DNA of 34,965 bases from NCBI GenBank assembly GCA_025361885.1, contig JANYJF010000061.1:1-34965 (forward strand), read 5' to 3'. Numbering within the stretch: position 1 is the stretch's first letter; the number at the start of each line of letters is the position of its first letter. A program made the position numbers and the translations under genes. Under the pieces are notes generated by a model, which made no database searches, had not been told where the DNA came from, and worked only from the letters and a program-made list of their open reading frames with translations. This stretch comes from Coriobacteriia bacterium. GTDB taxonomy: Bacteria; Actinomycetota; Coriobacteriia; Anaerosomatales; PALSA-660. Of this stretch, positions 16,440-34,902 are shown piece after piece.

Positions 16440-18365
16440 ATGGTCCCGCGAGGCTTCCAGACTCCCACGCTCGATGCCGAGACACTCGACGACCTCGAGG
16501 CGCGGGCGCTCGCTTGCAGGGGCGCCATCCTCACCATGACCTCGGTCGCGGCGTCGGGGCATCCTGGCGGATCGATGTCGTCCATCGAGACGTTCCTGAT
16601 GCTCTACCGTTTCGCCGACCTGCGCCCCAAGGACCCGTGCTGGGCCGGTCGTGATCGCGTGATAGTCAGCCACGGACACACGTCGCCCGGGGTGTATTCG
16701 GCGTTGGCGGACGCGGGCTTCTTCGACGTCGAGGACCTGATCCCGCATTTCAGGCAGGCAGGGTCGGTGTTCGAGGGCCATGTCGAACGCTCAGTGCCCG
16801 GAGTGGAATGGTCGACCGGCAACCTCGGGCAGGGTCTGTCCGCCGGCGTCGGGTCCGCGTTGGCTGCCCGCCTCACCGGCGGCGCCTGGCACACCTTCGT
16901 CGCGATGTCCGATGGGGAGCAGCACAAGGGCCAGGTCGCCGAGGCCCGGCGTCTCGCCGTCAAGGAGGGGCTGTGCGACCTGACTGTCGTCGTCGACCTC
17001 AACGGCATCCAGATCTCGGGACACACCCGCGACGTCATGCCCGTAGACGTCGCGGCGGACTTCATCGCGGACGGTTGGGGAATCGAAGAGGTCGACGGAC
17101 ACGACTTCGCGGAGCTCCACGGCGCGATCGCCCGGGCGGTCGCGGACTGCTCGCGTCCGTGCGCGGTCATCGCTCACACGGTCATCGGCAAGGGCGTCTC
17201 GTTCATGGAGGACCAGGCTGAGTTCCACGGCCGAGGACTTACAGCGGACGAGTACCGGCGCGCCATGGAGGAACTCGGTCTCGAGCCGCGTCTTGAGCAC
17301 TACCTGGGCTTGCGGACGTCGCCGTGCGCAACGGTCCCCGTGAAGAGGCCCCGGCCCGCAGTTGCGACGGTGACGGGTGCTCCGCGCACGTACACCTCCG
17401 AGAAGGGCACCGACAACCGGTCGGCGTGGGGCGCAGCCCTTGTGGACATCGCCGACAGCGAGCCCAGCACACCGATAGTCGTACTGGACTGTGACCTGGC
17501 CCAGTCCGTCAAGACCGAGGCCTTCGCCAAGGCGCGCCCCGACGCGTTCATCGAGTGCGGGGTGGGGGAGCACAACACGGCGACTGTCGGCGGAGCGATG
17601 TCGGTCAACGGCGTCCTGACCTTTTGGTCTGACTTCGGCGTGTTCGGCGTCGACGAGGCCTACAACCAGCAGCGGCTCAACGACATCAACGAGGCCCACC
17701 TCAAGCTCGCGGTCACGCACTGCGGCTTGGATGTGGGCGAGGACGGCAAGACGCACCAGTGCCTAGATTACGTCGGCGCGTTCCGTGACTTCTTCGGGTG
17801 GAGGGTGATCGTGCCGGCTGACCCCAATCAGACCGACCGCGCGGTCCGTTGGATGGCATCACAGCCGGGCTGCATAGCGATCGCCATGGGCCGCAGCAAG
17901 CTGCCGGTCATCGCGGAGGCGAACGGCGATCCGGTGTTCGCTCGCGACTACACCTTTCGCTATGGCGAGGTGGAGTGGGTCCGTCGCGGTGTCGACGCCA
18001 CGATCCTCGTGATGGGCACACCGTCGGGGGCGGCCGTCCGCGCCGCCGACATCCTGGCGAGGCAGGGGATACGCGTGGGCGTCGGAATCGTGTCGAGCCC
18101 CCTCGAGCTATCCGATGACGACATGCGGCGCGCCCTAGAGGCACCGGTGCTCGTGACTGTGGAGGACCACAGCGTCCGCAGTGGACTAGCGGCGACCGCG
18201 GCGGAGTGGCTGGCGCTCAACGGCCGCTCGACGCACTTCGTGCGGGTCGGCGTTGACGGCTACCGGTCCTCGGGTGCCTCACAGGACCTGCTGTCGCGCA
18301 ACCATCTGGACGCCGACGGTATCGCGAGCGTCGTGAGGGGCCACACGAAGAAGAACAGCGCCTAG
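16440..18365 (+). CDS. Transketolase-family protein (N- and C-terminal halves in one chain)
   Basis: ILTMTSVAASGHPGGSMSSIETFLMLYRFADLRPKDP...DRVIVSHGHTSPGVYSALADAGFF...WSTGNLGQGLSAGVGSALAARLTG...AMSDGEQHKGQVAEARR...; C-half ECGVGEHNTATVGGAMSVNGVLTFWSDFGVF...CGLDVGEDGKTHQCLDYVGAFR. Confidence 0.88.
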   Translation: MVPRGFQTPTLDAETLDDLEARALACRGAILTMTSVAASGHPGGSMSSIETFLMLYRFADLRPKDPCWAGRDRVIVSHGHTSPGVYSALADAGFFDVEDLIPHFRQAGSVFEGHVERSVPGVEWSTGNLGQGLSAGVGSALAARLTGGAWHTFVAMSDGEQHKGQVAEARRLAVKEGLCDLTVVVDLNGIQISGHTRDVMPVDVAADFIADGWGIEEVDGHDFAELHGAIARAVADCSRPCAVIAHTVIGKGVSFMEDQAEFHGRGLTADEYRRAMEELGLEPRLEHYLGLRTSPCATVPVKRPRPAVATVTGAPRTYTSEKGTDNRSAWGAALVDIADSEPSTPIVVLDCDLAQSVKTEAFAKARPDAFIECGVGEHNTATVGGAMSVNGVLTFWSDFGVFGVDEAYNQQRLNDINEAHLKLAVTHCGLDVGEDGKTHQCLDYVGAFRDFFGWRVIVPADPNQTDRAVRWMASQPGCIAIAMGRSKLPVIAEANGDPVFARDYTFRYGEVEWVRRGVDATILVMGTPSGAAVRAADILARQGIRVGVGIVSSPLELSDDDMRRALEAPVLVTVEDHSVRSGLAATAAEWLALNGRSTHFVRVGVDGYRSSGASQDLLSRNHLDADGIASVVRGHTKKNSA

Positions 18366-18919
18366 CCTTCGCGGCCGGGCATGTCCCCGAATCCTCGCAT
18401 CGCGGAGAGCACCTGAGCGTCAGCCGTCGTGCCCTGCCGGGGCGTCACCACGACATCGTGCTCGGCAAGGATCGTCAGGACCGCTGCGACGGCGGCCGGC
18501 ACGGCGGCCTCGACAGCGGGTGTGAGGCCGATCGACATCTGGCTCATGTCTTGGATCTGCACGGCTACGCACTCCCCGACGACCTTCGCGCCCATCAACT
18601 CGGCTGCTTGGAGCACGTCGACGAATCGGATGTCGTGGAGAGAGTGGAGGACTTGGTTGGGGGCGAGGTCCTCCGGGTCGAGCCGCACGACGGTCCCTGG
18701 CGCCTCGCCGGTGCCATCGATCGCATCGACCACCAGCATGTAGTCCGCGTCCTGGAACAGGTTCAGGATCGACATGCCCATCGTGCCGGCGTCGAGCACG
18801 GTCACGTTGTCCGGGAAGACGAACCCCTCCATGAGCACTTCGGCGACCCGCGGCCCGATGCCCTCGTCGCGCATCAGTGGGTTGCCGAGACCCATGACGG
18901 TGATTCGCTCCTGCTGCAT
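18362..18919 (-). CDS. hyaD: [NiFe]-type hydrogenase maturation protease
   Basis: ITVMGLGNPLMRDEGIGPRVAEVLME...VTVLDAGTMGMSILNLFQDADYMLVVDAIDGTGEAPGTVVRL (HyaD/HybD family). Confidence 0.9.
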   Translation of the reverse strand: MQQERITVMGLGNPLMRDEGIGPRVAEVLMEGFVFPDNVTVLDAGTMGMSILNLFQDADYMLVVDAIDGTGEAPGTVVRLDPEDLAPNQVLHSLHDIRFVDVLQAAELMGAKVVGECVAVQIQDMSQMSIGLTPAVEAAVPAAVAAVLTILAEHDVVVTPRQGTTADAQVLSAMRGFGDMPGREG

Positions 18920-19014
18920 CGTACGACCTCTCTTGTGGCTTCGATGGCTTCAGCCGCCTGATGATACAGCACCAAGAGGCCGGGCAGACGCCGAGCGATG
19001 CCGGCGCTGGGTGG

Positions 19015-20451
19015 CTACACCGCCGGCGCGCACTCCGGCTCGAGGGCCCCGGGGAGATCGCACCCTTCGAGCAGCAGCAGGCGCTCCGCGGCGGGCAGGG
19101 CCGCCCGGGCCTCGTCGCGATGTTGGTTCGACATCGCGAGCATCTCCCGCATCATCACCACGAGCAGGTAGCGGCCCTTCTGGGTGAGCGTCAGGCACTC
19201 TGGGTCGTCGCGCTCGAACGCACCCACTGCGCGCATGAACGCCATCTCGCCGAGCAGCCCCAGGTCCACGGGCACGCCGAACTGCTCCCTGAAGCGGCGC
19301 TTGTCCAGTCTGAGCCCGAACAGATCGACGACGAACTGATAGCGCATCTTGTCATGCCAGCCATACGTGCGTCCGGCCGTCGCCACCGACATGCGGCCCG
19401 ACTCTATGGAATCGGCGTACTCGGACAGCGAGAAGGTGTTCCCATAGAGCCGTCCGTCAAGGAACGACTGAGCGCCGGAGCCGATCCCCACGTACTCCGG
19501 CGTGTCGACGATGTACTCGTCGATCATGCCGCCCTTCTCGCGGGAGTAGGTCCAGGCCGAGGACGCTTCGAAGGCTTCACCGGCGCACAGGACATCACCG
19601 ATGATGTGGTGGTAGTCGCCTTCGCGAGAGTAGTCGATCTTTCCCACTGCGCTGGCCATCGACTCCGCCGACTCGGGCGAGGCCATGAGCGGGTAGAACG
19701 TCGTCTGGTTGCAGCCGCTTGCCCGGATCAGCTCCACGTCGCGACGCAGGCTCGCCTCCGTCTGTGACGGGAAGTTGAAGATCATGTCGACGTTGAGCGA
19801 ATGGAACCAGCCGCGCGTGGCGACCAGCCTCTCGAAGAGTTCCGCGCCAGAGCCGTACTTGTCGTAGCGGTCCATCTGCTTGAGCAGCATGTCGTCGAAA
19901 CTCTGGATGCCCACAGACATGCGCTGGATGCGGCCGTCGAGTTGTTCCACGACCTGCTCGGTCAGGTGGTTCGGGCTCGTCTCCGAGGAGACCTCCTGTA
20001 TGGAGAACAACTCGCGAGCAAGGTCGATCGTCTCGACCAGCTCATCGACGAGGATAGTGGGTGTGCCGCCGCCGATGTAGAGCGAGGAGAAGTCGTAGCC
20101 CAGCCTCGAGACCATACGCATCTCATCGCGAAGGTGACCGAAGTAGACGCGAGCGCGGTCTTCTTGGAACAGGAACCGGTTGAACGAGCAGTACAGGCAC
20201 AGCCGCTCGCAGAACGGTACGTGGACATACAGCGTGTATCCGTGGCCAGGGAGGGGGGAGGGCAGCGAATCCATCGTCGCAGGCGCGTGCGCGGTGTAGC
20301 CGGCGGTCAGCTGGCGCATCACGGTGGTGAGGCAACGCTCTGCGAACATCGGGACGGGTTCCCTTCCGTGGAGCATGGAAGCGCTGTCCGGAGCCGGGAC
20401 CGCGTTCGCGCGTGCGTTGATGTGTGAGAAGTGCTCGAGCGGCTCCCACAT
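19015..20451 (-). CDS. HemN/HemW-like radical SAM protein (coproporphyrinogen III oxidase family)
   Basis: YTLYVHVPFCERLCLYCSFNRFLFQEDRARVYFGHLRDEM (CxxxCxxC), LYIGGGTPTIL, RMSVGIQSFDDMLLKQMDR, YVGIGSGAQSFLDGRLYGNTFSLSEYADSI. Confidence 0.88.
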   Translation of the reverse strand: MWEPLEHFSHINARANAVPAPDSASMLHGREPVPMFAERCLTTVMRQLTAGYTAHAPATMDSLPSPLPGHGYTLYVHVPFCERLCLYCSFNRFLFQEDRARVYFGHLRDEMRMVSRLGYDFSSLYIGGGTPTILVDELVETIDLARELFSIQEVSSETSPNHLTEQVVEQLDGRIQRMSVGIQSFDDMLLKQMDRYDKYGSGAELFERLVATRGWFHSLNVDMIFNFPSQTEASLRRDVELIRASGCNQTTFYPLMASPESAESMASAVGKIDYSREGDYHHIIGDVLCAGEAFEASSAWTYSREKGGMIDEYIVDTPEYVGIGSGAQSFLDGRLYGNTFSLSEYADSIESGRMSVATAGRTYGWHDKMRYQFVVDLFGLRLDKRRFREQFGVPVDLGLLGEMAFMRAVGAFERDDPECLTLTQKGRYLLVVMMREMLAMSNQHRDEARAALPAAERLLLLEGCDLPGALEPECAPAV

Positions 20452-20497
20452 TCGGCCTTCGCTGCGCTCCGAGGAACGGCGACGAGACTCAATGTGC

Positions 20498-20523
20498 GAT
20501 ATTCGCCATTGTAGGCGAATATC
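20498..20523. promoter_or_regulatory. Perfect 10-bp inverted repeat, candidate operator upstream of the HemN-like/hyaD pair
   Basis: GATATTCGCC-ATTGTA-GGCGAATATC, about 47 bp upstream of the HemN-like start at 20451. Confidence 0.6.
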
Positions 20524-20613
20524 CTGCCGTGCACGACGGCAGCCGTCCGGTTCAGCCGATGGGAGCGACGCTTCGAAGAGTCGCTGTGCCGAGACGTGGG
20601 CGCACTCGTGGAA

Positions 20614-20643
20614 GGGCCGGGAGCCGCAAGCGGCTCCCGGCCC
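20614..20643 (-). terminator. Terminator hairpin downstream of the hydrogenase cytochrome b gene
   Basis: GGGCCGGGAGCCG-caag-CGGCTCCCGGCCC, 13-bp stem about 43 bp past the 20686 stop; weak T-content after it. Confidence 0.6.
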
Positions 20644-20685
20644 TCGCCGGTCGGATCTTCGTACTCAGGACATGCAGACCGGGTA

Positions 20686-21348
20686 CTACTGGTGGTACCG
20701 GTCGTGTGGGTCCTCGGTCTCGATCCAGAAGAACATGAGCTTGGTCGGCGCTACTCCGTAGATGTTCGCGAGATACACGTGGATCATCGTGAAGAGGATG
20801 ATCGCCCACATCAGGAAGTAGTGGATGATACGCATGTTCATGTCGCCACCCACTGCGGTGAGCCCAGCCTCGAAGAACGGCCAGATACCCCACTGGTGCG
20901 CCGGGGTGTAGATGGCGAATCCGGCGTACGCGATGGCATACGTGAGCGGGATCGTGGCCAGGTAGGCGATCTTCTGGAGAGCGCCGTTCTTGGCCGAGAT
21001 CACGTGCTCCTTGCGCATGAACAGGTAGTACTTTGCGGTCTCGATGAGCTGGTGACGGTTCTCCGCCTGAGGGATCCAGTTCTTCCAGTCCCAGTCGCGA
21101 TCCTTGGTGCCCATCTGGTTCGTATCCTTGACCGTGAAGGCCATGATGATGCGAGCCGTGATCGTGACCAGGAGCAGGTACATGAAGAAGAAGTGCAGAG
21201 AGCGGGCCGCACCCATGAAGCCCGCGAAGAACGGGAAGTGGATGTAGAAGCCCGTGAAGACGAGCACGATCATGCTGATGAGGTTGCTCCAGTGCGACAA
21301 CATCAAAGGCAGAGGGTGCGCCTCACGGTAGTGTCCGTGGCCCGACAT
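20686..21348 (-). CDS. hyaC: Hydrogenase b-type cytochrome subunit
   Basis: HPLPLMLSHWSNLISMIVLVFTGFYIHFPF...ARSLHFFFMYLLLVTITARIIMAF...MRIIHYFLMWAIILFTMIHVYLA, multi-TM with heme-ligand-like His. GTG at 21357 is an alternative start. Confidence 0.88.
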   Translation of the reverse strand: MSGHGHYREAHPLPLMLSHWSNLISMIVLVFTGFYIHFPFFAGFMGAARSLHFFFMYLLLVTITARIIMAFTVKDTNQMGTKDRDWDWKNWIPQAENRHQLIETAKYYLFMRKEHVISAKNGALQKIAYLATIPLTYAIAYAGFAIYTPAHQWGIWPFFEAGLTAVGGDMNMRIIHYFLMWAIILFTMIHVYLANIYGVAPTKLMFFWIETEDPHDRYHQ

Positions 21349-21353
21349 GGAGA

Positions 21354-22988
21354 TCACCTACCCATCGGCTTCGACATCACGAAGCTCTTCTTGCCGGTCT
21401 TGGGTTCAAACACGTGAACCCCGCAACCGAGTCAAGGATCGAAGCTATGGACGATGCGGAGTGCTTCGAGCGGCTTCTCCGGGTCTGCGATGGGAGCACC
21501 CACGAGGGCCTCTTCCAGCGGACCGCGAACACCCTTGGCGTCCCTTGAGGACATGTCCCACGTTGACGGGGTGACCACCTGATAGTTGGCGATCTTGCCG
21601 CCCTTGACGCTCATCCAGTGGCCGAGAGCGCCACGGGGCGCCTCCCACAAGCCAGCGCCATCGCCTTCGGTCTCGGACGACTCGACGAAGAACGAAGAGT
21701 CGCCTTCCTTGACTGCAGCGATGAGCTCGCCGATCCAGTCGCCCATAAGTCCGACGACGTACAGGGCCTCGAGGTTCCGGGCCGCGACGCGTCCGAGCAG
21801 GGACATCAGGATCTCGGGCTTGCCGGCTGCGCCGAGCTTCGCCAGCGTGCCGTCGATGATGGCCTTGACCTTCTCGTTGCCCGAGAGGTACGCGACCAGC
21901 ATGCGGGACAGGGGACCGACTTCCATGGGCTTCTCGTCGTAACGGGGAGCCTTGACCCAGGAGTACTGCTTGTCGAGGTTGTAGTCCGTGAAGGCCATGT
22001 GAGTCTTGCCCTGTGCGGGGTTCAGGCCGGTCTCGGACTGCGTGTACCACGAGTGCTCGACGTATTCCTTGATCTTCTTGGGGTCCGCGTCCGCGACGGT
22101 CAGACTGCCGGAGATGACGCCCGGTGGAAGGTAGCGCTTCTTCGGGTCCATCGACTTGTCCTCGAAGACACCCCACGCCAGGTAGTTGCCGACGCCCTTG
22201 CCGTAGGTGGTCGCATCCAGATAGAACGGAGCGATCGCCAGGGTATCGGGGATCATGGCCTTCTCGACGAACTCCTTGACACGATTGAAGTGGAACAGGA
22301 CGCCGTCGAGCTTCTCCTCGGTGGGATACCAAGCGGTACCACCAGGAAGTGACGTCATGAAGTGCGGGAACTTGCCGCCCATGATCGCGATGATCTGCGC
22401 TGCCTCGGCCTGGATGGAGAGGGCCTCGAGGTAGTGAGCCACGGCGATGAGGTTGAGCTCCGGCGGAAGCTTATAGGCCGAGTGCCCGAACCAGTTGTTC
22501 GTGAAGATGGACAGCTGTCCGTTCTCCACGAAGCCCTTGATGCGGCTCTGGATCGCGCCGAAGTCCGCAGTGGACGTGCCGGCCTTCTCGGCCAGGGCGT
22601 ACGTATCGGCGATGTTCGCCTTGAGGGCGGAGACCACGTCGACGTAGTCCAGCGCGGTGAGCGTGTAGAACCACAGCACGTGGCTGTGGAGCATCTCAGC
22701 GCCTTCGATGATGTTGCGGATGATGCGAGCGTTGTTCGGGATCTTGATCTTGAGCGCGCCCTCGGCCGCCATGGTGGCGGCGTGGCCGTGCGAGATCGGA
22801 CAGACACCGCAGATGCGCTGAGCGACGTAGAAAGCGTCGGCCGGAGCGCGACCTTGCAGCACCGTCTCAAGACCACGGTACAGGCCACCGGACGCCCAAG
22901 CGTCGGTCACCACGCCGTTGTCGACCTTTACCTCCACGCGGAGGTGTCCTTCGATCCTGGTAACAGGGTCGATGACTACGTTAGCCAC
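21354..22988 (-). CDS. hyaB: [NiFeSe] hydrogenase large subunit; predicted selenoprotein with UGA (21432-21434) read as Sec
   Basis: L1 motif RICGVCPISHGH. The ORF track stops at 21432 (...LEALRIVHSFDP), but read-through gives U-LGCGVHVFEPKTGKKSFVMSKPMGR and a TGA at 21354-21356, completing DPUxxCxxH and a cleavable C-terminal tail. GTG start at 22988 overlaps the small subunit stop by 1 nt. Confidence 0.92.
21402..21421 (-). promoter_or_regulatory. bSECIS-like hairpin just 3' of the in-frame UGA
   Basis: mRNA sense: UGA CUCGGUUGCG-GGGUUCA-CGUGUU-UGAACCC-AAGACCG. 7-bp perfect stem, 6-nt loop containing GU, loop 21-26 nt from the U of UGA, plus a possible outer CGGU/ACCG stem. Confidence 0.72.
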
Positions 22989-24136
22989 TATTTGTCGCCT
23001 CCCTTCGCTGCTTTCTTGCGGTCATACGCCTTCTCGGTCTCGGGCGGTCCGCCCTTGCCGACCCGGCCTTGGGTGCCGCTGACGACGGCGTGGACACCGA
23101 GCGCCACGGCAGCTGCGCCACCGAGCACTGCGCCCACGGTCGACGGAGCTACGCCGCCGATGCCCGGAAGCTTCACGTTGCTCGTGCGCGTCAGGAACGG
23201 AGCGTCGTTGTCGACCCAGTTGAAGTTGCCGCAGCCGATGCAGGGGCTACCGGACTCCACACACCAGGAGACACGGTCGTTCCAGCGGACATACGGGCAG
23301 TTCGTGTAGGTCTGGGGGCCCTTGCAGCCGACCTTGTACAGGCAGAACTGCTTCTTCTCCTCGACGGTGCCGAACTTCTCCACGAACTCGCCGTTCTCGA
23401 AATGACCGCGGCGGGGGCAGTTGTCGTGGATGGTGGAGCCGTAGATGAGCGTCGGGCGACCCTTGGAGTCCAGAGCCGGCAGCTTGCCGACGAGCAGGAC
23501 GTCCACGATCATCGCGACGATCCACTCCGGGTTCACCGGGCATGTGGGAAGGTTGATGATCGGCTTGCTGATGCCGACGGATGCCAGATACTCGCTGACG
23601 CCCGTGGCGCCGGCGGGGTTCGGGGCAGCCTTGACCCAGCCGCCGTCGACCGCGCAGGAACCCACGGCGATGATGGCGTCGGCGTTCTTGGCCGCTTCCT
23701 TGACATCTTCGCGGCCAGGACGGCCACCGACACGCAGTGTGTTGCCATTGGCACCGTTCATGATGGAACCCTCGACGATCAGGATGTAGCCACCCTTGTC
23801 GACGGTCTCGGTGATCGCCTTGAGGGCGTCGGAACCAGCCGACGCCATGACAGTCTCCCAGTAGTTCACCGAGAGGATGTCGAGGACGACCGTGGGAACG
23901 TCTGGCGTCCGTGACTGCGCCATGGACTCAGTGCAGCCGGTGCAAAGGCCCTGTGCGATCCACAGCACGGGCTTGAGCTTCGCGCCGGACTCGACGGCTG
24001 CGGCGATCTGGGGCGCGTACATCTCGGACAATCCGAGAAGGGCCGCAACGGAACCGCAGTACTTCAGAAAGTCGCGTCGCGACACACCCCTGGCAGCGAG
24101 CAGGTCATAGACCTCTCCTCGCGCGTCTTGCGCCAT
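22988..24136 (-). CDS. hyaA: Hydrogenase small subunit, Tat-exported
   Basis: Tat signal GVSRRDFLKYCGSVAALLGLSE; LCTGCTES proximal motif; GSCAVDGG; DNCPRRGHF; CLYKVGCKGPQTYTNCPYVRWNDRVSWCVESGSPCIGCGNFNW. SD AAGGAGG before ATG 24136. Confidence 0.94.
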   Translation of the reverse strand: MAQDARGEVYDLLAARGVSRRDFLKYCGSVAALLGLSEMYAPQIAAAVESGAKLKPVLWIAQGLCTGCTESMAQSRTPDVPTVVLDILSVNYWETVMASAGSDALKAITETVDKGGYILIVEGSIMNGANGNTLRVGGRPGREDVKEAAKNADAIIAVGSCAVDGGWVKAAPNPAGATGVSEYLASVGISKPIINLPTCPVNPEWIVAMIVDVLLVGKLPALDSKGRPTLIYGSTIHDNCPRRGHFENGEFVEKFGTVEEKKQFCLYKVGCKGPQTYTNCPYVRWNDRVSWCVESGSPCIGCGNFNWVDNDAPFLTRTSNVKLPGIGGVAPSTVGAVLGGAAAVALGVHAVVSGTQGRVGKGGPPETEKAYDRKKAAKGGDK

Positions 24137-24187
24137 CCCATACACCTCCTTGTTTCTTCGAACAGTAGGACGGATGTGATACTCCCC

Positions 24188-24222
24188 GGCTCGTACCGGC
24201 CCACACCGGGCCGTCACGAGCC
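24188..24222 (-). promoter_or_regulatory. Hairpin in the hydrogenase 5' region
   Basis: GGCTCGT-ac-CGGCCC-acacc-GGGCCG-tc-ACGAGCC, 13 paired bp with a symmetric 2-nt internal loop, about 50 bp upstream of the hyaA start. Confidence 0.45.
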
Positions 24223-24712
24223 CCATTCGGATGCGCGAACCCTCCTTTCGATGAACACGAGAGACTTGGCAGTCCTTTCAGCCACGGCACAGGAGCGCCG
24301 CCAGGTCGGGTGTGACCGGGCGGCGCGGGCCGGAACTGTCGTCATGGGGTGTCGGGCGAAGGGGTCGGCGCTGCACGACGGATCATGTGCGGGCAGACCT
24401 GCCCGATTGGTGGTCGTTCAAGACCAGGCGCGACGCCTGAGGGAGGGGACGGCGAAGCAAGAGGGAGTACCCCCCGCGCCGGTACGGGTTCTGCCGGCCC
24501 CGTTGCCGTCGGTACGTTCACGCATGCGGATCGTCATAGCCCCTCGTCGACGTGGTCGCACGATGTCGCGCGTTCACTAGTCTGAAACTTGCCGCGTGCC
24601 CGCACAAGTCCCAACACGTCTATTCTGCGCAGAAGTCGCGACACCTGCCCACGTGCTCCTTTGATGGGGGCGTCGCGGGTATGTACCCCCAACAGCCTAA
24701 GGAGGCAGGACA

Positions 24713-29422: not shown

Positions 29423-31039
29423 GTGGCAGAGATCAGAGTGCTGATAATCAATGACGACCCGTCGCTGGTGGACACCCTCCAGCGCTTCTTCACCTCACAC
29501 GATCCGGAGATGGACGTGTTCGCCGCGGTGTCCGGTCCTCGCGCCATAGGGATGGCGAGCGCCCGCAAGCCGCATGTGATCATCGTGGACGGCGACATGG
29601 CCGATATCGACGGATACACGCTGACCAAGCAGATCAGACAGGAGGACGGGCTGGGCTCCGTGCCCGTCATCATCCTGGCCGACAAGCCGTCGGAGGCCAC
29701 GGCACTCAAAGCACGCCAGGCGGGTGCCGCGGCGCACATGGCGGACGCGACCGATCCGGGCACCATCATGGACAAGGTGCGAGCCCTCGCGGGCGGCTCG
29801 GGGGCGGCGCCGGCATCGGCGTCCGCGACCACGCTGTCGGACGAGCCGGCGGCCTCGCCCGCAGACGCGCTTTCCAACTACGGCGCGCCGCAGCCCGTCC
29901 CGAGCGGGGGAGCCGCTGCGGAGTTTGCTGGTTCCGTGGCGGCGGGCGTCAAGGTCGGCCAGCCTACCGACGTTCCCCACATCGACGACCTCCTGCGCCT
30001 GATGATCGAGCGCAACGGGTCGGACCTTCACATCACGGTCGGCAGCCCTCCCGGCGTCCGCCAGCGCGGTGAGCTGATGGCCATCGACGGCTACCGTCCT
30101 CTGTCGCCCCGAGACACGCAGGAGATGATCCTCGGGCTGCTGTCCGAGGAGCAGCGTCGCCGTTTCGAGACCGAGCTGGAACTCGACTTCGCCTATTCGA
30201 TCCCGGGCGTGTCACGCTTCCGCGCGAACGTGTTCCAGCAGCGCAACTCCATGGGCGCGGTCTTCCGCGTCATCCCGCTCAAGATCCCGACCATCGAGGA
30301 GCTGCAGCTGCCCAAGGTGTGCAAGTTCCTCGCGGAGCGCCCTCGCGGCCTGGTGCTCGTGACCGGTCCGACCGGCTCGGGCAAGTCGACCACTCTGGCC
30401 GCGATCATCGATCACATCAACACGACGCGCAAGGTCCACATCATCACCATGGAGGACCCGATCGAGTTCATGCACCGCAACAAGATGGCGTACGTCAACC
30501 AGCGCGAGGTCGGCGAGGACACGCACTCCTTCGCGTCGGCGCTCAAGCGGGTCCTGCGGCAGGACCCCGACGTCATCCTGGTCGGCGAGATGCGGGACCT
30601 AGAGACGATCTCCGCGGCGATCACCGCGGCGGAGACCGGCCACCTCGTGTTCGCGACCCTGCACACCACCGGCGGTCCCGAGACCATCGACCGAGTCATC
30701 GATGTCTTCCCCCCGCACCAGCAGCAGCAGGTGCGCATGCAGCTCTCGGGTACGCTCGAGGGGGTCCTGTCGCAGAACCTGTTGCGATCGACCGACGGCA
30801 AGACACGCGTGCTTGCGATGGAGATAATGCTCGGCGTTCCCGCCATCTCCAACTTGATCCGCGAGGGCAAGACCCATCAGATGGCGACGATCATCCAGGG
30901 CGGCGCGAACATCGGCATGCAGACGCTCGACCAGCATCTCAAGAACCTGTGCCAGGCCGGGAAGGTCACCTTCGAGGAGGCCATCTCCAAGGCCAAGGAG
31001 CCGCGCGAGCTCGCCCAGCTCATGGGGCGCAAGATCTAG
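29423..31039 (+). CDS. Receiver-like domain fused to PilT-type (GspE/VirB11 superfamily) ATPase
   Basis: N-term VLIINDDPSLVDTLQRFF...HVIIVDGDMADIDGYTLTKQIRQ; C-term HIDDLLRLMIERNGSDLHITVGSPPGVRQRGEL..., GPTGSGKSTTLAAIIDHIN, ITMEDPIEFMH, LRQDPDVILVGEMRDLETISAAITAAETGHLVFATLHT. Confidence 0.93.
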   Translation: MAEIRVLIINDDPSLVDTLQRFFTSHDPEMDVFAAVSGPRAIGMASARKPHVIIVDGDMADIDGYTLTKQIRQEDGLGSVPVIILADKPSEATALKARQAGAAAHMADATDPGTIMDKVRALAGGSGAAPASASATTLSDEPAASPADALSNYGAPQPVPSGGAAAEFAGSVAAGVKVGQPTDVPHIDDLLRLMIERNGSDLHITVGSPPGVRQRGELMAIDGYRPLSPRDTQEMILGLLSEEQRRRFETELELDFAYSIPGVSRFRANVFQQRNSMGAVFRVIPLKIPTIEELQLPKVCKFLAERPRGLVLVTGPTGSGKSTTLAAIIDHINTTRKVHIITMEDPIEFMHRNKMAYVNQREVGEDTHSFASALKRVLRQDPDVILVGEMRDLETISAAITAAETGHLVFATLHTTGGPETIDRVIDVFPPHQQQQVRMQLSGTLEGVLSQNLLRSTDGKTRVLAMEIMLGVPAISNLIREGKTHQMATIIQGGANIGMQTLDQHLKNLCQAGKVTFEEAISKAKEPRELAQLMGRKI

Positions 31040-31177: not shown

Positions 31178-31606
31178 GTGGACACCATCCGCGTAAGGCA
31201 CGTGGCAGGCCGCCAGTTCACCGGCTGGAACGAACGAGGTCACGGAATCGTGATGGACACACCCCCCGCATACAAAGGCGAGGGCACCGGTCCGCGACCC
31301 TTGGAACTCGTCCTGTATGCCTTGGGCGGATGCACGGCCATGGACGTGGTGAGTATCCTCGAGAAGAAGCGACTCGATATCCGGAGCGTGGATGTCACAG
31401 TCACCGGCGTTCAGCGCGAGGACGACCATCCGCACTACTACGAGCGTGTCAGCGTCGAGTACCTTGTGACCGGTGTGGGCGTTCCCGAAGAGGCCGTCGC
31501 ACGAGCGATCGAGTTGTCCGAGACCAAGTACTGCTCGGTCAAGGGTATGTTCGGCCCCCAGGTCGAGGTCGTCACGAGCTTCCGCGTGGTGGAAGTCACG
31601 TGCTGA
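31178..31606 (+). CDS. OsmC family protein
   Basis: VRHVAGRQFTGWNERGHGIVMDTPPAYKGEGTGPRPLELVLYALGGCTAMDVVSILEKKR...AIELSETKYCSVKGMF. GTG start after GGAAGGAG. Confidence 0.9.
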   Translation: MDTIRVRHVAGRQFTGWNERGHGIVMDTPPAYKGEGTGPRPLELVLYALGGCTAMDVVSILEKKRLDIRSVDVTVTGVQREDDHPHYYERVSVEYLVTGVGVPEEAVARAIELSETKYCSVKGMFGPQVEVVTSFRVVEVTC

Positions 31607-31652
31607 CGTCCATCGTGTGCCGCCGCACTCGTGTACCCGAAGAGGGTGCCGT

Positions 31653-32351
31653 GTGACCGACTGCCTCGTCATGCCCGTCTACAACGAAGCGCCCACCGTG
31701 ACGAGCGTACTGGACGCTGTGCGGCACTACTACGACGGCGTGGTGGTGCTGGTCGACGACGGGTCGACGGACGAGACGGCCGTCATCCTGGCCGCCCGCG
31801 ACGACGTCCAGGTGATCACGCACCCTGTCAACGAGGGCTATGGCCAGTCGCTCATCGACGGAGCGCGTGCCGCACAGGCGGCGGGGGCGTCGCGGCTCGT
31901 GACCATGGACGTCGACGGGCAGCATGAGCCGGCACGCATCCCCGAGTTCCTTGAGGCGCTCTCCGGCGGCGTGGACATCGTGTCCGGGTCGCGTTACCTG
32001 CCCGCGAGCGTGCAGGCGGGCATCGCCCCGCCGGACCGAGCCGACATCAACCGGCGCATCACCGACACCATCAACGCGACGACGGGCTGGGGTCTCAGCG
32101 ACGCATTCTGCGGATTCAAGGCCTATCGCCTCTCGTCGCTGTCCGGTATCACCCTGAGCGAGCGCGGTTACGCCATGCCACTGGAGCTGTGGGCGAAGGC
32201 GTGGCGGCGCGGCCTGGTGGTGCGCGAGGCGCCGGTGGAGCGCATCTACTTCGACCACGACCGGTCGTTCGGCGAGGATCTCGACGACCCGGTCAAGCGG
32301 TACTCCTACTACATGCGGGTGTGGGAACGCGCCCTCGACGAGGAGGACTGA
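31653..32351 (+). CDS. Glycosyltransferase family 2 protein
   Basis: CLVMPVYNEAPTVTSVLDAVRHYYDGVVVLVDDGSTDET...THPVNEGYGQSLIDGARAAQ...VTMDVDGQHEPARIPEFLEAL (GT-A fold, DxD). Confidence 0.92.
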   Translation: MTDCLVMPVYNEAPTVTSVLDAVRHYYDGVVVLVDDGSTDETAVILAARDDVQVITHPVNEGYGQSLIDGARAAQAAGASRLVTMDVDGQHEPARIPEFLEALSGGVDIVSGSRYLPASVQAGIAPPDRADINRRITDTINATTGWGLSDAFCGFKAYRLSSLSGITLSERGYAMPLELWAKAWRRGLVVREAPVERIYFDHDRSFGEDLDDPVKRYSYYMRVWERALDEED

Positions 32352-32358
32352 TCGAGCA

Positions 32359-33039
32359 GTGTTCGACATCATTGCCGTGGGGGCTCACCCCGACGACGTA
32401 GAGATCGGCATGGGCGGCACCGTGGCCGGACTGGTCCGGCAGGGGATGAGCGTCCTGATCGTGGACCTCACCGATGGCGAGCCGACGCCCTTCGGCACCA
32501 GGGAGACCCGTGCGGCCGAGTCGAAGGCGGCGGCGTCCGTACTCGGCGCGCAGCGGCTGACGATGACGCTCCCGAACCGCGAGTTGTTCGACACCGTGGA
32601 CGCGCGAAAGATGCTGGCCGAGGTCATCCGCGCGCACAAGCCGCGCGTACTGTTCGCACCGTATCCGATCGACTCGCATCCGGATCACGTCGCTGCGGCG
32701 GCGATATGCGAGGCTGCGCGGTTCTACGGCAAGTTCGTGAAGACGGACATGCGCGGCGAGCCCCATTTCGTGCCCCGCCTCTACCACTATTTCGCCGTAC
32801 ATCTGCGGATGGTGGCCAAGCCATCCTTCATCGTGGACGTCAGCGAGGACATGCCCAAGAAGATGGATGCGTTGGCCTGTTACGAGTCGCAGTTCTCGGC
32901 CAACGATCGCAACACCGGCGTGCTCGACTGGGTGCGCGGTCAGTCTGCCGTTTGGGGCGGCGCGATCGGTCGGTCTGCGGGCGAGCCGTTCCTGTGCCGC
33001 GAGGAGATCGGCGTGCGCTCGGTCGGTGATCTGCTGTGA
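32359..33039 (+). CDS. PIG-L family deacetylase, BshB1-like
   Basis: IIAVGAHPDDVEIGMGGTVAGLVRQGMSVLIVDLTDGEPTPFGTRETRAAESKAAASVLGAQRLTMTLPNRELFD...YPIDSHPDHVAAAAIC (AHPDDxE zinc site). Confidence 0.88.
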   Translation: MFDIIAVGAHPDDVEIGMGGTVAGLVRQGMSVLIVDLTDGEPTPFGTRETRAAESKAAASVLGAQRLTMTLPNRELFDTVDARKMLAEVIRAHKPRVLFAPYPIDSHPDHVAAAAICEAARFYGKFVKTDMRGEPHFVPRLYHYFAVHLRMVAKPSFIVDVSEDMPKKMDALACYESQFSANDRNTGVLDWVRGQSAVWGGAIGRSAGEPFLCREEIGVRSVGDLL

Positions 33040-34613
33040 GCCCGGTACACGCGCGTTCGGTGACACCGTCCGGGCATGGTGAGGTGCTGACAGAGCCGGC
33101 GTTCGACTCGTGGGCGCGACTCGCTCGCGACAACGCTTCTGCCGCGGCTGCCTGGGACTTCGACGTGTGCGGTGTCCGGGCGGTCGATCTGCGGGCCCGT
33201 GCCCGCGCCGAGGCTATCGCCGAGGCGAAGACGTTCTCGGCCCGGATGGGCGTCCCAGTGGCGTCTCCGCCCGAACATCCCGACCTCCTCGTCATGACCG
33301 GCCACCAGCCGCAGCTGTACCACCCGGGCATCTGGGTGAAGGACTTCTTGCTGCAGCGCTTGGCGGACCAGATCGGGGCGGCCGCGATCGATTTGGTGGT
33401 CGACTCCGACGGATTCGACCTCGTCGAAGTGCACGCGCCGTGCCTGAGGCCTGTGCTGTCGAGGTGCGCCCAGTTCCTGGCGGTCGGTGGGGGCGACACG
33501 TGCTTCGCCTGCTCGTCGGTCCCGAGCGCGCGTGACCTGTCGACGTTCCGCGAGGCAGGCGCACAGATGCTCGCGACTCTGCCGGCGCCCGCCATCGGGC
33601 GGCACTTCGACTCGTTCTGCGATGCGATGGACGCGGCGCGTTCCGACAGCGCGAACCTTGGCGAGTTCATCACCTTCGCCCGACGGCGCTTCGAGGCCGT
33701 GGCCGGTACCGACTACCTGGAGCTGCCTGTGACGAGCGAGGCGAGCACGACAGCCTTCGCTGTGTTCCTGGCCGATATCGTGCGTGATGCCGAGCGTTTC
33801 GCGAGCGTGTACAACGCCGAGCTTGCAGCGTACCGGGAGCGTACCGGGACCCGCTCCGCAGCGCAGCCGTTCCCTGACCTTCGCATCGAAGGAGGGTTGG
33901 TGGAGTTGCCGTTCTGGCATCTGCGGTCCGGCGGACGCTCCACGCTGTGGGCGCGCACCGACGGCGTTCCGGCCCTCGTGTGTGACGGCGAGGTCCTGTG
34001 CGAGCTGCCGAGCGAGTGCGAGGAGGCCGCCGCGACGCTCGCTTCGTGCGTCGTGCGGCCGGCGCCCAAAGCGCTCGCGCTCACACTGTACAACCGGATG
34101 TTCGTGGCGGACCTGTTCATCCACGGCACCGGCGGTGGCCGCTACGACCGAGTCACCGACGGTGTCATCCGCTCGTTCTGGGGCGTGGAGCCACCCGCGT
34201 TCGTGGTTGCCTCGATGACGATGTACCTCCCGCTCGGGGCGCGCGTGGTCACTGCCGAGGAGGTCGATGCGGTGAGGCAGACGCTCAACCGTCTGCAGCA
34301 CAACCCCGACCAGCTGCTGGACGAGCTGGAGTTCGACGACGCGGAGGAGCACCGCCGAGCGGTCGCGCTGGCGGGCGAGAAGTCACGCCTGGTGGGCGAG
34401 ATTGCCGCGCCGGACGCCGACAAGAAGGCCATCGGGCGTTTGATCCGCGAGGTGAACGCCGAGCTGGCTGCACTCATGGAGCCGTACGAGATGTCGCTCC
34501 GCGAGGAGTTGGAGCGGCTGGTGGAGATGCAGCAGGCATCCGAGATCCTGACCGACAGGACCTACCCGTTCTGCTTCTGGAGCCCGCTCGAGGTCGCCGA
34601 CAAGGCGCGATGA
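33036..34613 (+). CDS. Divergent BshC-like (bacillithiol cysteine-adding enzyme-like) protein
   Basis: LLVMTGHQPQLYHPGIWVKDFLLQRLADQIGAAAIDLVVDSDGFDLVEVHAP resembles the BshC TGQQ...DxDF..EV region; LYNRMFVADLFIHGTGGGRYDRVTDGVIRSFWGVEPPAFVVAS resembles the BshC GGPGE region. Overlaps the preceding stop (GTGA). Confidence 0.6.
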   Translation: MSPVHARSVTPSGHGEVLTEPAFDSWARLARDNASAAAAWDFDVCGVRAVDLRARARAEAIAEAKTFSARMGVPVASPPEHPDLLVMTGHQPQLYHPGIWVKDFLLQRLADQIGAAAIDLVVDSDGFDLVEVHAPCLRPVLSRCAQFLAVGGGDTCFACSSVPSARDLSTFREAGAQMLATLPAPAIGRHFDSFCDAMDAARSDSANLGEFITFARRRFEAVAGTDYLELPVTSEASTTAFAVFLADIVRDAERFASVYNAELAAYRERTGTRSAAQPFPDLRIEGGLVELPFWHLRSGGRSTLWARTDGVPALVCDGEVLCELPSECEEAAATLASCVVRPAPKALALTLYNRMFVADLFIHGTGGGRYDRVTDGVIRSFWGVEPPAFVVASMTMYLPLGARVVTAEEVDAVRQTLNRLQHNPDQLLDELEFDDAEEHRRAVALAGEKSRLVGEIAAPDADKKAIGRLIREVNAELAALMEPYEMSLREELERLVEMQQASEILTDRTYPFCFWSPLEVADKAR

Positions 34614-34725
34614 GTCCGGTCCCGCCGTGCGGGAAGGTTTGCGTTCGTCGCTTGAATACAGGGCGCGTATGGTGGAAACTTCGCGAACGCGCTCCTGCGC
34701 GACTCTCTTAGGAAAGGACCGGCCC

Positions 34726-34902
34726 ATGGGTAAGCCCGTCGTCGACCCGAACCTGTGCACCGCCTGCGGTATCTGCGTGGACGAATGCCCGACCAGTGCC
34801 CTCGATCTCCAGGACACCGCGGTCCTGGCCCGTCCGGCTGACTGCAGCGAGTGCGGAACGTGCGAAGAAGTCTGCCCGAACGAGGCGATCAAGCTCGTCT
34901 AG
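34726..34902 (+). CDS. 2[4Fe-4S] ferredoxin
   Basis: MGKPVVDPNLCTACGICVDECPTSALDLQDTAVLARPADCSECGTCEEVCPNEAIKLV; two CxxCxxCxxxCP motifs; SD AGGAAAGG. Confidence 0.94.
   Translation: MGKPVVDPNLCTACGICVDECPTSALDLQDTAVLARPADCSECGTCEEVCPNEAIKLV

Follow-up and report, generated by a model that had tools for sequence, protein, structure and literature searches.

The 3' end of a 34,965-nucleotide stretch of DNA from a Coriobacteriia bacterium (contig JANYJF010000061.1; hereafter the window, a single contig of a 1.65 Mb draft genome) carries a gene cassette in which a family 2 glycosyltransferase (GT2), a PIG-L deacetylase and a BshC-like protein are probably the three enzymes of a route parallel to bacillithiol biosynthesis. 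The evidence consists of a conserved gene arrangement, a remote evolutionary relationship between BshC and the third protein, an exact substitution for BshA and BshC in the Planctomycetota, a separate clade of deacetylases, and the absence of the bacilliredoxins BrxA/B from the variant planctomycetes. Through the cassette, a small protective thiol is probably made in numerous Planctomycetota and throughout one order of Actinomycetota, groups not previously known to have one. The cassette also adds to BshC a second family that is highly divergent. Current annotation hides this pathway, with the deacetylase named as bacillithiol BshB1 in genomes that have neither BshA nor BshC and the ligase assigned to no family.

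Genes of the cassette

Five intact open reading frames (ORFs), encoding OsmC, GT2, PIG-L, BshC-like and ferredoxin proteins in that order, lie on the same strand:

31178-31606, + strand: OsmC/Ohr-family protein, 142 amino acids (aa), first gene of the cassette (PF02566, E 6.2e-18)
31653-32351, + strand: GT2 glycosyltransferase, 232 aa, GT-A domain only (PF00535, Glycos_transf_2, E 1.1e-25)
32359-33039, + strand: PIG-L / BshB1-type N-acetylglucosaminyl deacetylase, 226 aa (PIG-L, E 6e-24; TIGR04001, 189.2 bits)
33036-34613, + strand: BshC-like protein, 525 aa, of an undescribed family (fold and profile match to BshC)
34726-34902, + strand: 2[4Fe-4S] ferredoxin, 58 aa, conserved 3' neighbour (PF00037, Fer4, E 2.1e-15)

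An earlier note on this DNA had described the GT2, deacetylase and BshC-like genes as consecutive, with an 8-nucleotide gap followed by a 4-nucleotide overlap. The three genes are indeed consecutive and keep the same order in relatives, and the overlap of PIG-L and BshC-like stands (33036-33039, GTGA); the gap between GT2 and PIG-L is 7 nucleotides (32352-32358). The assignment of the glycosyltransferase to GT2 rather than to the GT4 type of BshA is borne out by the PF00535 match, and its metal-binding motif reads MDVDGQHEP, while the deacetylase carries the motifs AHPDDVE and HPDH. The ferredoxin was listed as an ORF at 34627-34902; the later ATG at 34726 agrees with homologs.

The third protein is a distant BshC homolog

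The BshC-like protein falls outside all Pfam and NCBIfam families, PF10079 included; the earlier note had already called it very divergent. None of 20 homologs from the window's order, the Anaerosomatales, has a convincing match in either collection. Searches against PDB with phmmer returned nothing, and the family profile returned only coiled-coil chance matches. Structure prediction was more informative. An AlphaFold2 model built from sequences of the order (predicted local distance difference test score, pLDDT, 91.6) had Bacillus subtilis BshC (4wbd) as its top Foldseek match (E 1.5e-12, probability 1.00), followed by class I lysyl-tRNA synthetase (LysRS, E 8e-5). A second model, of the homolog from Singulisphaera acidiphila, used no sequences of the order (pLDDT 94.2) and likewise had 4wbd first (E 1.8e-13) and class I LysRS second. 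Profile comparison with hhalign of 113 family members and 35 canonical BshC sequences gave a probability of 93% and an E-value of 3.4e-7 over 332 colinear columns, with negative controls (reversed BshC, PIG-L and GT2; E 0.15-0.26). It should be noted that this match was obtained only with cross-phylum alignments, a narrow order-only alignment giving no BshC match (E 0.16).

The conserved positions of the two families coincide as well. Residues G89, Q91, K102, D123, D125, R301, R354, G364 and Y370 show at least 93% conservation in both families, and they likely mark the catalytic site. Three landmarks can be placed as follows, the last of them cited in the earlier note:

33297-33311, + strand: TGHQP motif, aa 88-92, counterpart of TGQQ in BshC
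33402-33410, + strand: D123-x-D125, counterpart of the D-x-D in the S/ASEDHD motif of BshC
34122-34148, + strand: HGTGGGRYD motif, aa 363-371 (family form HGxGGxxYD), counterpart of VGGPAEIAY in BshC

Taken together, the two models, the profile alignment and the shared conserved residues establish the BshC-like protein as a distant homolog of BshC, and we propose that it is an amino-acid (cysteine) ligase. It is very improbable that it is a mere class I aminoacyl-tRNA synthetase-like Rossmann protein and that its association with GT2 and PIG-L serves another metabolite. That idea draws on the position of class I aminoacyl-tRNA synthetases as the next Foldseek matches and on the place of the protein outside all curated families; however, in both searches the E-value of BshC is some seven orders of magnitude better than that of the next match, the profile homology comes with shared conserved residues, and the protein is exactly complementary to BshC among planctomycete genomes, as described below.

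Short, divergent BshC-like proteins of about 450-485 aa, still encoded beside a GT2, were also observed at four loci (L171-L174, in genomes G700, G724, G769 and G781), and possibly constitute a further subfamily.

The cassette is nearly invariant in the Anaerosomatales

The BshC-like gene was found in 65 of the 69 genomes of this Coriobacteriia order. The other four genomes are drafts, and completeness is 64% in one of them and 77% in another. Wherever a locus of the order has enough flanking sequence (about 31 cases), GT2, PIG-L and BshC-like are arranged and oriented alike; the ferredoxin lies downstream in 33/33 testable loci, and OsmC lies upstream of GT2 in 38 of the 39 longer loci that could be tested. 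Because gene order is near-invariant across these loci, the arrangement is not due to chance. The exception among the longer loci, L061, also from the Coriobacteriia, keeps GT2-PIG-L-BshC-like and has neither OsmC nor ferredoxin as a neighbour.

Canonical BshC (PF10079) and BshA above cut-off (GT4, TIGR03999) were each found in 0/69 genomes of the order. All matches to the BshA model there fall below the cut-off and were read as ordinary GT4 enzymes. In the remainder of the class Coriobacteriia the BshC-like protein gave short, weak matches only; the weak class- or phylum-level matches in G355, G393, G627, G036, G064 and G138 are to coiled coils or short stretches and were not counted. A tblastn search of plasmids gave no match.

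Exact substitution for BshA and BshC in the Planctomycetota

In a wide scan of one genome each for about 85,000 species, relatives of the BshC-like protein outside the order were found in Planctomycetota and Armatimonadota. GT2 adjoins the BshC-like gene in 35 of the 37 non-Coriobacteriia loci examined. PIG-L is adjacent to the cassette in one armatimonadete locus (L075) and lies elsewhere in the genome in planctomycetes, where BshB1 exceeds its cut-off in 23 of 30 genomes and has some match in all 30.

The substitution shows most clearly when five models are run against a single sample of 118 Planctomycetota genomes (BshB1-type deacetylase at E < 1e-40; GT2 above 200 bits, the next best scoring 140). 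A BshB1-type deacetylase was found in 96 genomes, canonical BshC in 70 (about 59%) and the BshC-like protein in 26 (22%). BshC and BshC-like never occur together, and their union is exactly the 96 deacetylase genomes. BshA is present in 68 genomes, all of which have BshC, and absent from all 26 with BshC-like, while the cassette-type GT2 is present in 27, namely these 26 and one further genome, G768. Such an exact partition of the BshB1 genomes would be predicted if GT2 had replaced BshA and the BshC-like protein had replaced BshC. Moreover, in 11 of the 26 genomes GT2 is apart from the BshC-like gene, on another contig or far away, yet is always present, so that co-conservation extends to genomes in which the genes are unlinked. 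A match in G790 proved to be a TPR/kinase protein and was excluded.

G768 deserves separate mention. It has a GT2 and a deacetylase of the variant clades together with a canonical BshC (PF10079 + PF24850), and neither BshA nor BrxA/B was found (loci L220, L221 and L222). Since variant GT2 and deacetylase are here paired with canonical BshC without BshA, GT2 appears to replace BshA, and G768 may be a natural hybrid in which GT2 stands in for it; however, each of the three genes is on a contig of its own in a draft bin, and mis-binning is possible. In another genome, G800 (L219), BshC is adjacent to a BshB1-type gene, and neither BshA, variant GT2 nor BrxA/B was found.

BshA, BshB1 and BshC occur together in 68 of the 118 genomes, whereas a 2018 survey counted Planctomycetes among the major lineages for which no low-molecular-weight thiol had been documented or predicted (Hiras et al. 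2018, PMC6282198).

Deacetylase, bacilliredoxin and glycosyltransferase

The window deacetylase scores 189.2 bits against TIGR04001, above the BshB1 equivalog cut-off of 182.5, and matches the GlcNAc-malate deacetylase 6p2t in PDB at E 3.2e-52; the earlier note was thus right to place this AHPDDxE deacetylase close to BshB1. In the deacetylase tree, the BshA/BshC-type and GT2/BshC-like-type sequences are separated by a single change (support 100/100), the variant clade comprising Coriobacteriia, Planctomycetota, Armatimonadota and G768. The cassette GT2s of Coriobacteriia and planctomycetes, including that of G768, likewise form one clade against background GT2s (support 100/96). BrxA/B (PF06491) was found in 59 of 70 genomes with BshC, 0 of 26 with BshC-like and 2 of 22 other Planctomycetota genomes. 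Because BrxA/B tracks BshC and never BshC-like in this phylum, the pattern suggests that cells deal with the variant product in another way than with bacillithiol.

These data bear on whether the cassette makes ordinary bacillithiol (Cys-GlcN-malate), with GT2 and BshC-like simply replacing BshA and BshC. The BshB1 score of the deacetylase is consistent with this, as is G768, where the joining of variant GT2 and deacetylase to canonical BshC suggests that intermediates may be interchangeable. We nevertheless consider it unlikely, since an alpha-linked product is unexpected from an inverting GT2, the variant deacetylases form a separate clade, BrxA/B is distributed as described above, and the hybrid may be an artefact of binning.

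A second alternative concerns the acceptor. The closest solved structure to GT2 is the Pyrococcus dolichol-phosphate mannose synthase (DPMS) 5mlz (E 1.6e-21 over the GT-A domain). The cassette might accordingly make a lipid-linked or envelope aminosugar conjugate, with GT2 loading polyprenyl phosphate, PIG-L deacetylating, BshC-like adding an amino acid, and no soluble thiol being formed. The likeness of GT2 to dolichyl- and undecaprenyl-phosphate sugar transferases speaks for this, as does, weakly, a score of 95 bits against PpgS (cut-off 370), with other polyprenyl-phosphate synthase equivalogs scoring lower. It is nonetheless a poor prospect, less probable still than ordinary bacillithiol: GT2 consists of a soluble GT-A domain only, the PIG-L protein is nearest to soluble GlcNAc-malate deacetylases of BshB1 type, and the ligase is homologous to BshC and takes its place exactly.

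Proposed pathway

GT2 enzymes invert, whereas the GT4 enzymes BshA and MshA are retaining; BshB removes an acetyl group, and BshC is the presumed cysteine ligase. By analogy, in the parallel route proposed here a cytosolic GT2 would move an N-acetylhexosamine from a UDP-sugar onto a small anionic acceptor, and because GT2 enzymes invert, the product is expected to be a beta anomer, unlike the alpha product of BshA and MshA. The BshB1-type deacetylase would then free the amine, to which the BshC-like enzyme would couple cysteine, yielding a cysteinyl-aminosugar thiol. We infer the substrates, sugar acceptor, stereochemistry, cysteine and thiol function, and the product is probably bacillithiol-like yet chemically distinct from bacillithiol. 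The chances seem evenly balanced for a fuller proposal, in which the cassette makes a previously unknown thiol, a beta-linked cysteinyl-aminosugar whose aglycone is not necessarily malate, that acts as the main redox buffer in much of the Planctomycetota, the Anaerosomatales and some Armatimonadota, with its own redoxin and disulfide reductase.

Several points weigh against such a thiol route. TM-scores to BshC are moderate (0.49-0.52), with a global root-mean-square deviation of about 10 Å. The nearest characterised relatives of GT2 are polyprenyl-phosphate sugar transferases, making a lipid acceptor possible, and the absence of BrxA/B from 26/26 variant genomes leaves no known thiol-handling partner to link the product to thiol chemistry. 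BshC itself had no demonstrated in vitro activity up to a 2015 review (PMC4360819). Finally, the correlation of gene profiles partly reflects one deep phylogenetic split, so that Fisher p-values overstate independence; since the genomes are related, we do not use these values as probabilities. On balance, the earlier note's suggestion of a variant thiol is supported, its product remaining a prediction: a relation to BshC was detected, no canonical bshA/bshC set was found in the order, and the genes are co-conserved. The outcome is a specific three-gene prediction that is open to test in cultured Singulisphaera acidiphila DSM 18658.

Neighbouring genes

Any role of the OsmC/Ohr-family protein or of the ferredoxin in the pathway is conjectural, and we did not adopt them as pathway enzymes, since neither accompanies the cassette in planctomycetes or at L061. 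At 29423-31039, immediately upstream of the cassette, the window encodes a protein that combines a response-regulator receiver domain (PF00072) with a PilT-like type II/IV secretion ATPase (PF00437); a homolog precedes the cassette in 36 of 39 loci of the order. An apparent NiFe hydrogenase operon (small and large subunits, cytochrome b and maturation protease), recognized by sequence motifs only, lies on the - strand at 18362-24226. In planctomycetes, a GNAT gene (PF13527) directly follows the BshC-like gene in 22 of 37 loci (e.g., L102:11628-13028, with an SCP2-like domain); by analogy with mycothiol synthesis it is a possible MshD-like tailoring step, offered as a lead only.

Comparison with known systems

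No description of a GT2/deacetylase/BshC-like pathway was found in the open-licence literature. The cassette shares with bacillithiol biosynthesis (BshA of GT4, BshB1, BshC) its three-step logic, a BshB1-family deacetylase and a third enzyme distantly homologous to BshC. It differs in having GT2 in place of BshA, a deacetylase in its own clade and a third enzyme outside PF10079 and every Pfam and NCBIfam model, and in the lack of BrxA/B in variant planctomycetes. Because two of the three gene-level features of the bacillithiol pathway (BshA and PF10079) are missing, we do not assign the cassette to it. Mycothiol biosynthesis (MshA, MshB, MshC, MshD) has a similar aminosugar-thiol logic, and the planctomycete GNAT neighbour recalls MshD; however, the glycosyltransferase is GT2 rather than GT4, the deacetylase scores 39.5 bits against the MshB model TIGR03445, below its cut-off of 224.35, and the ligase resembles BshC, not CysRS/MshC.

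At the level of single enzymes, the BshC-like protein resembles the BshC family (PF10079 + PF24850; 4wbd) in overall predicted fold and in the TG[HQ]Q, K, D-x-D, R, R, G and Y positions, but it matches neither Pfam domain, has H for Q in TGHQP and GG..Y for GGPAE..Y, and differs at its C-terminal end (DRTYPFCFW). Likewise, GT2 shares the GT-A fold and the DxD and GSRY motifs with the GT2 polyprenyl-phosphate sugar synthases DPMS and PpgS, whereas it has no membrane segment, scores far below every equivalog cut-off and belongs to a clade of its own that is tied to the BshC-like gene.

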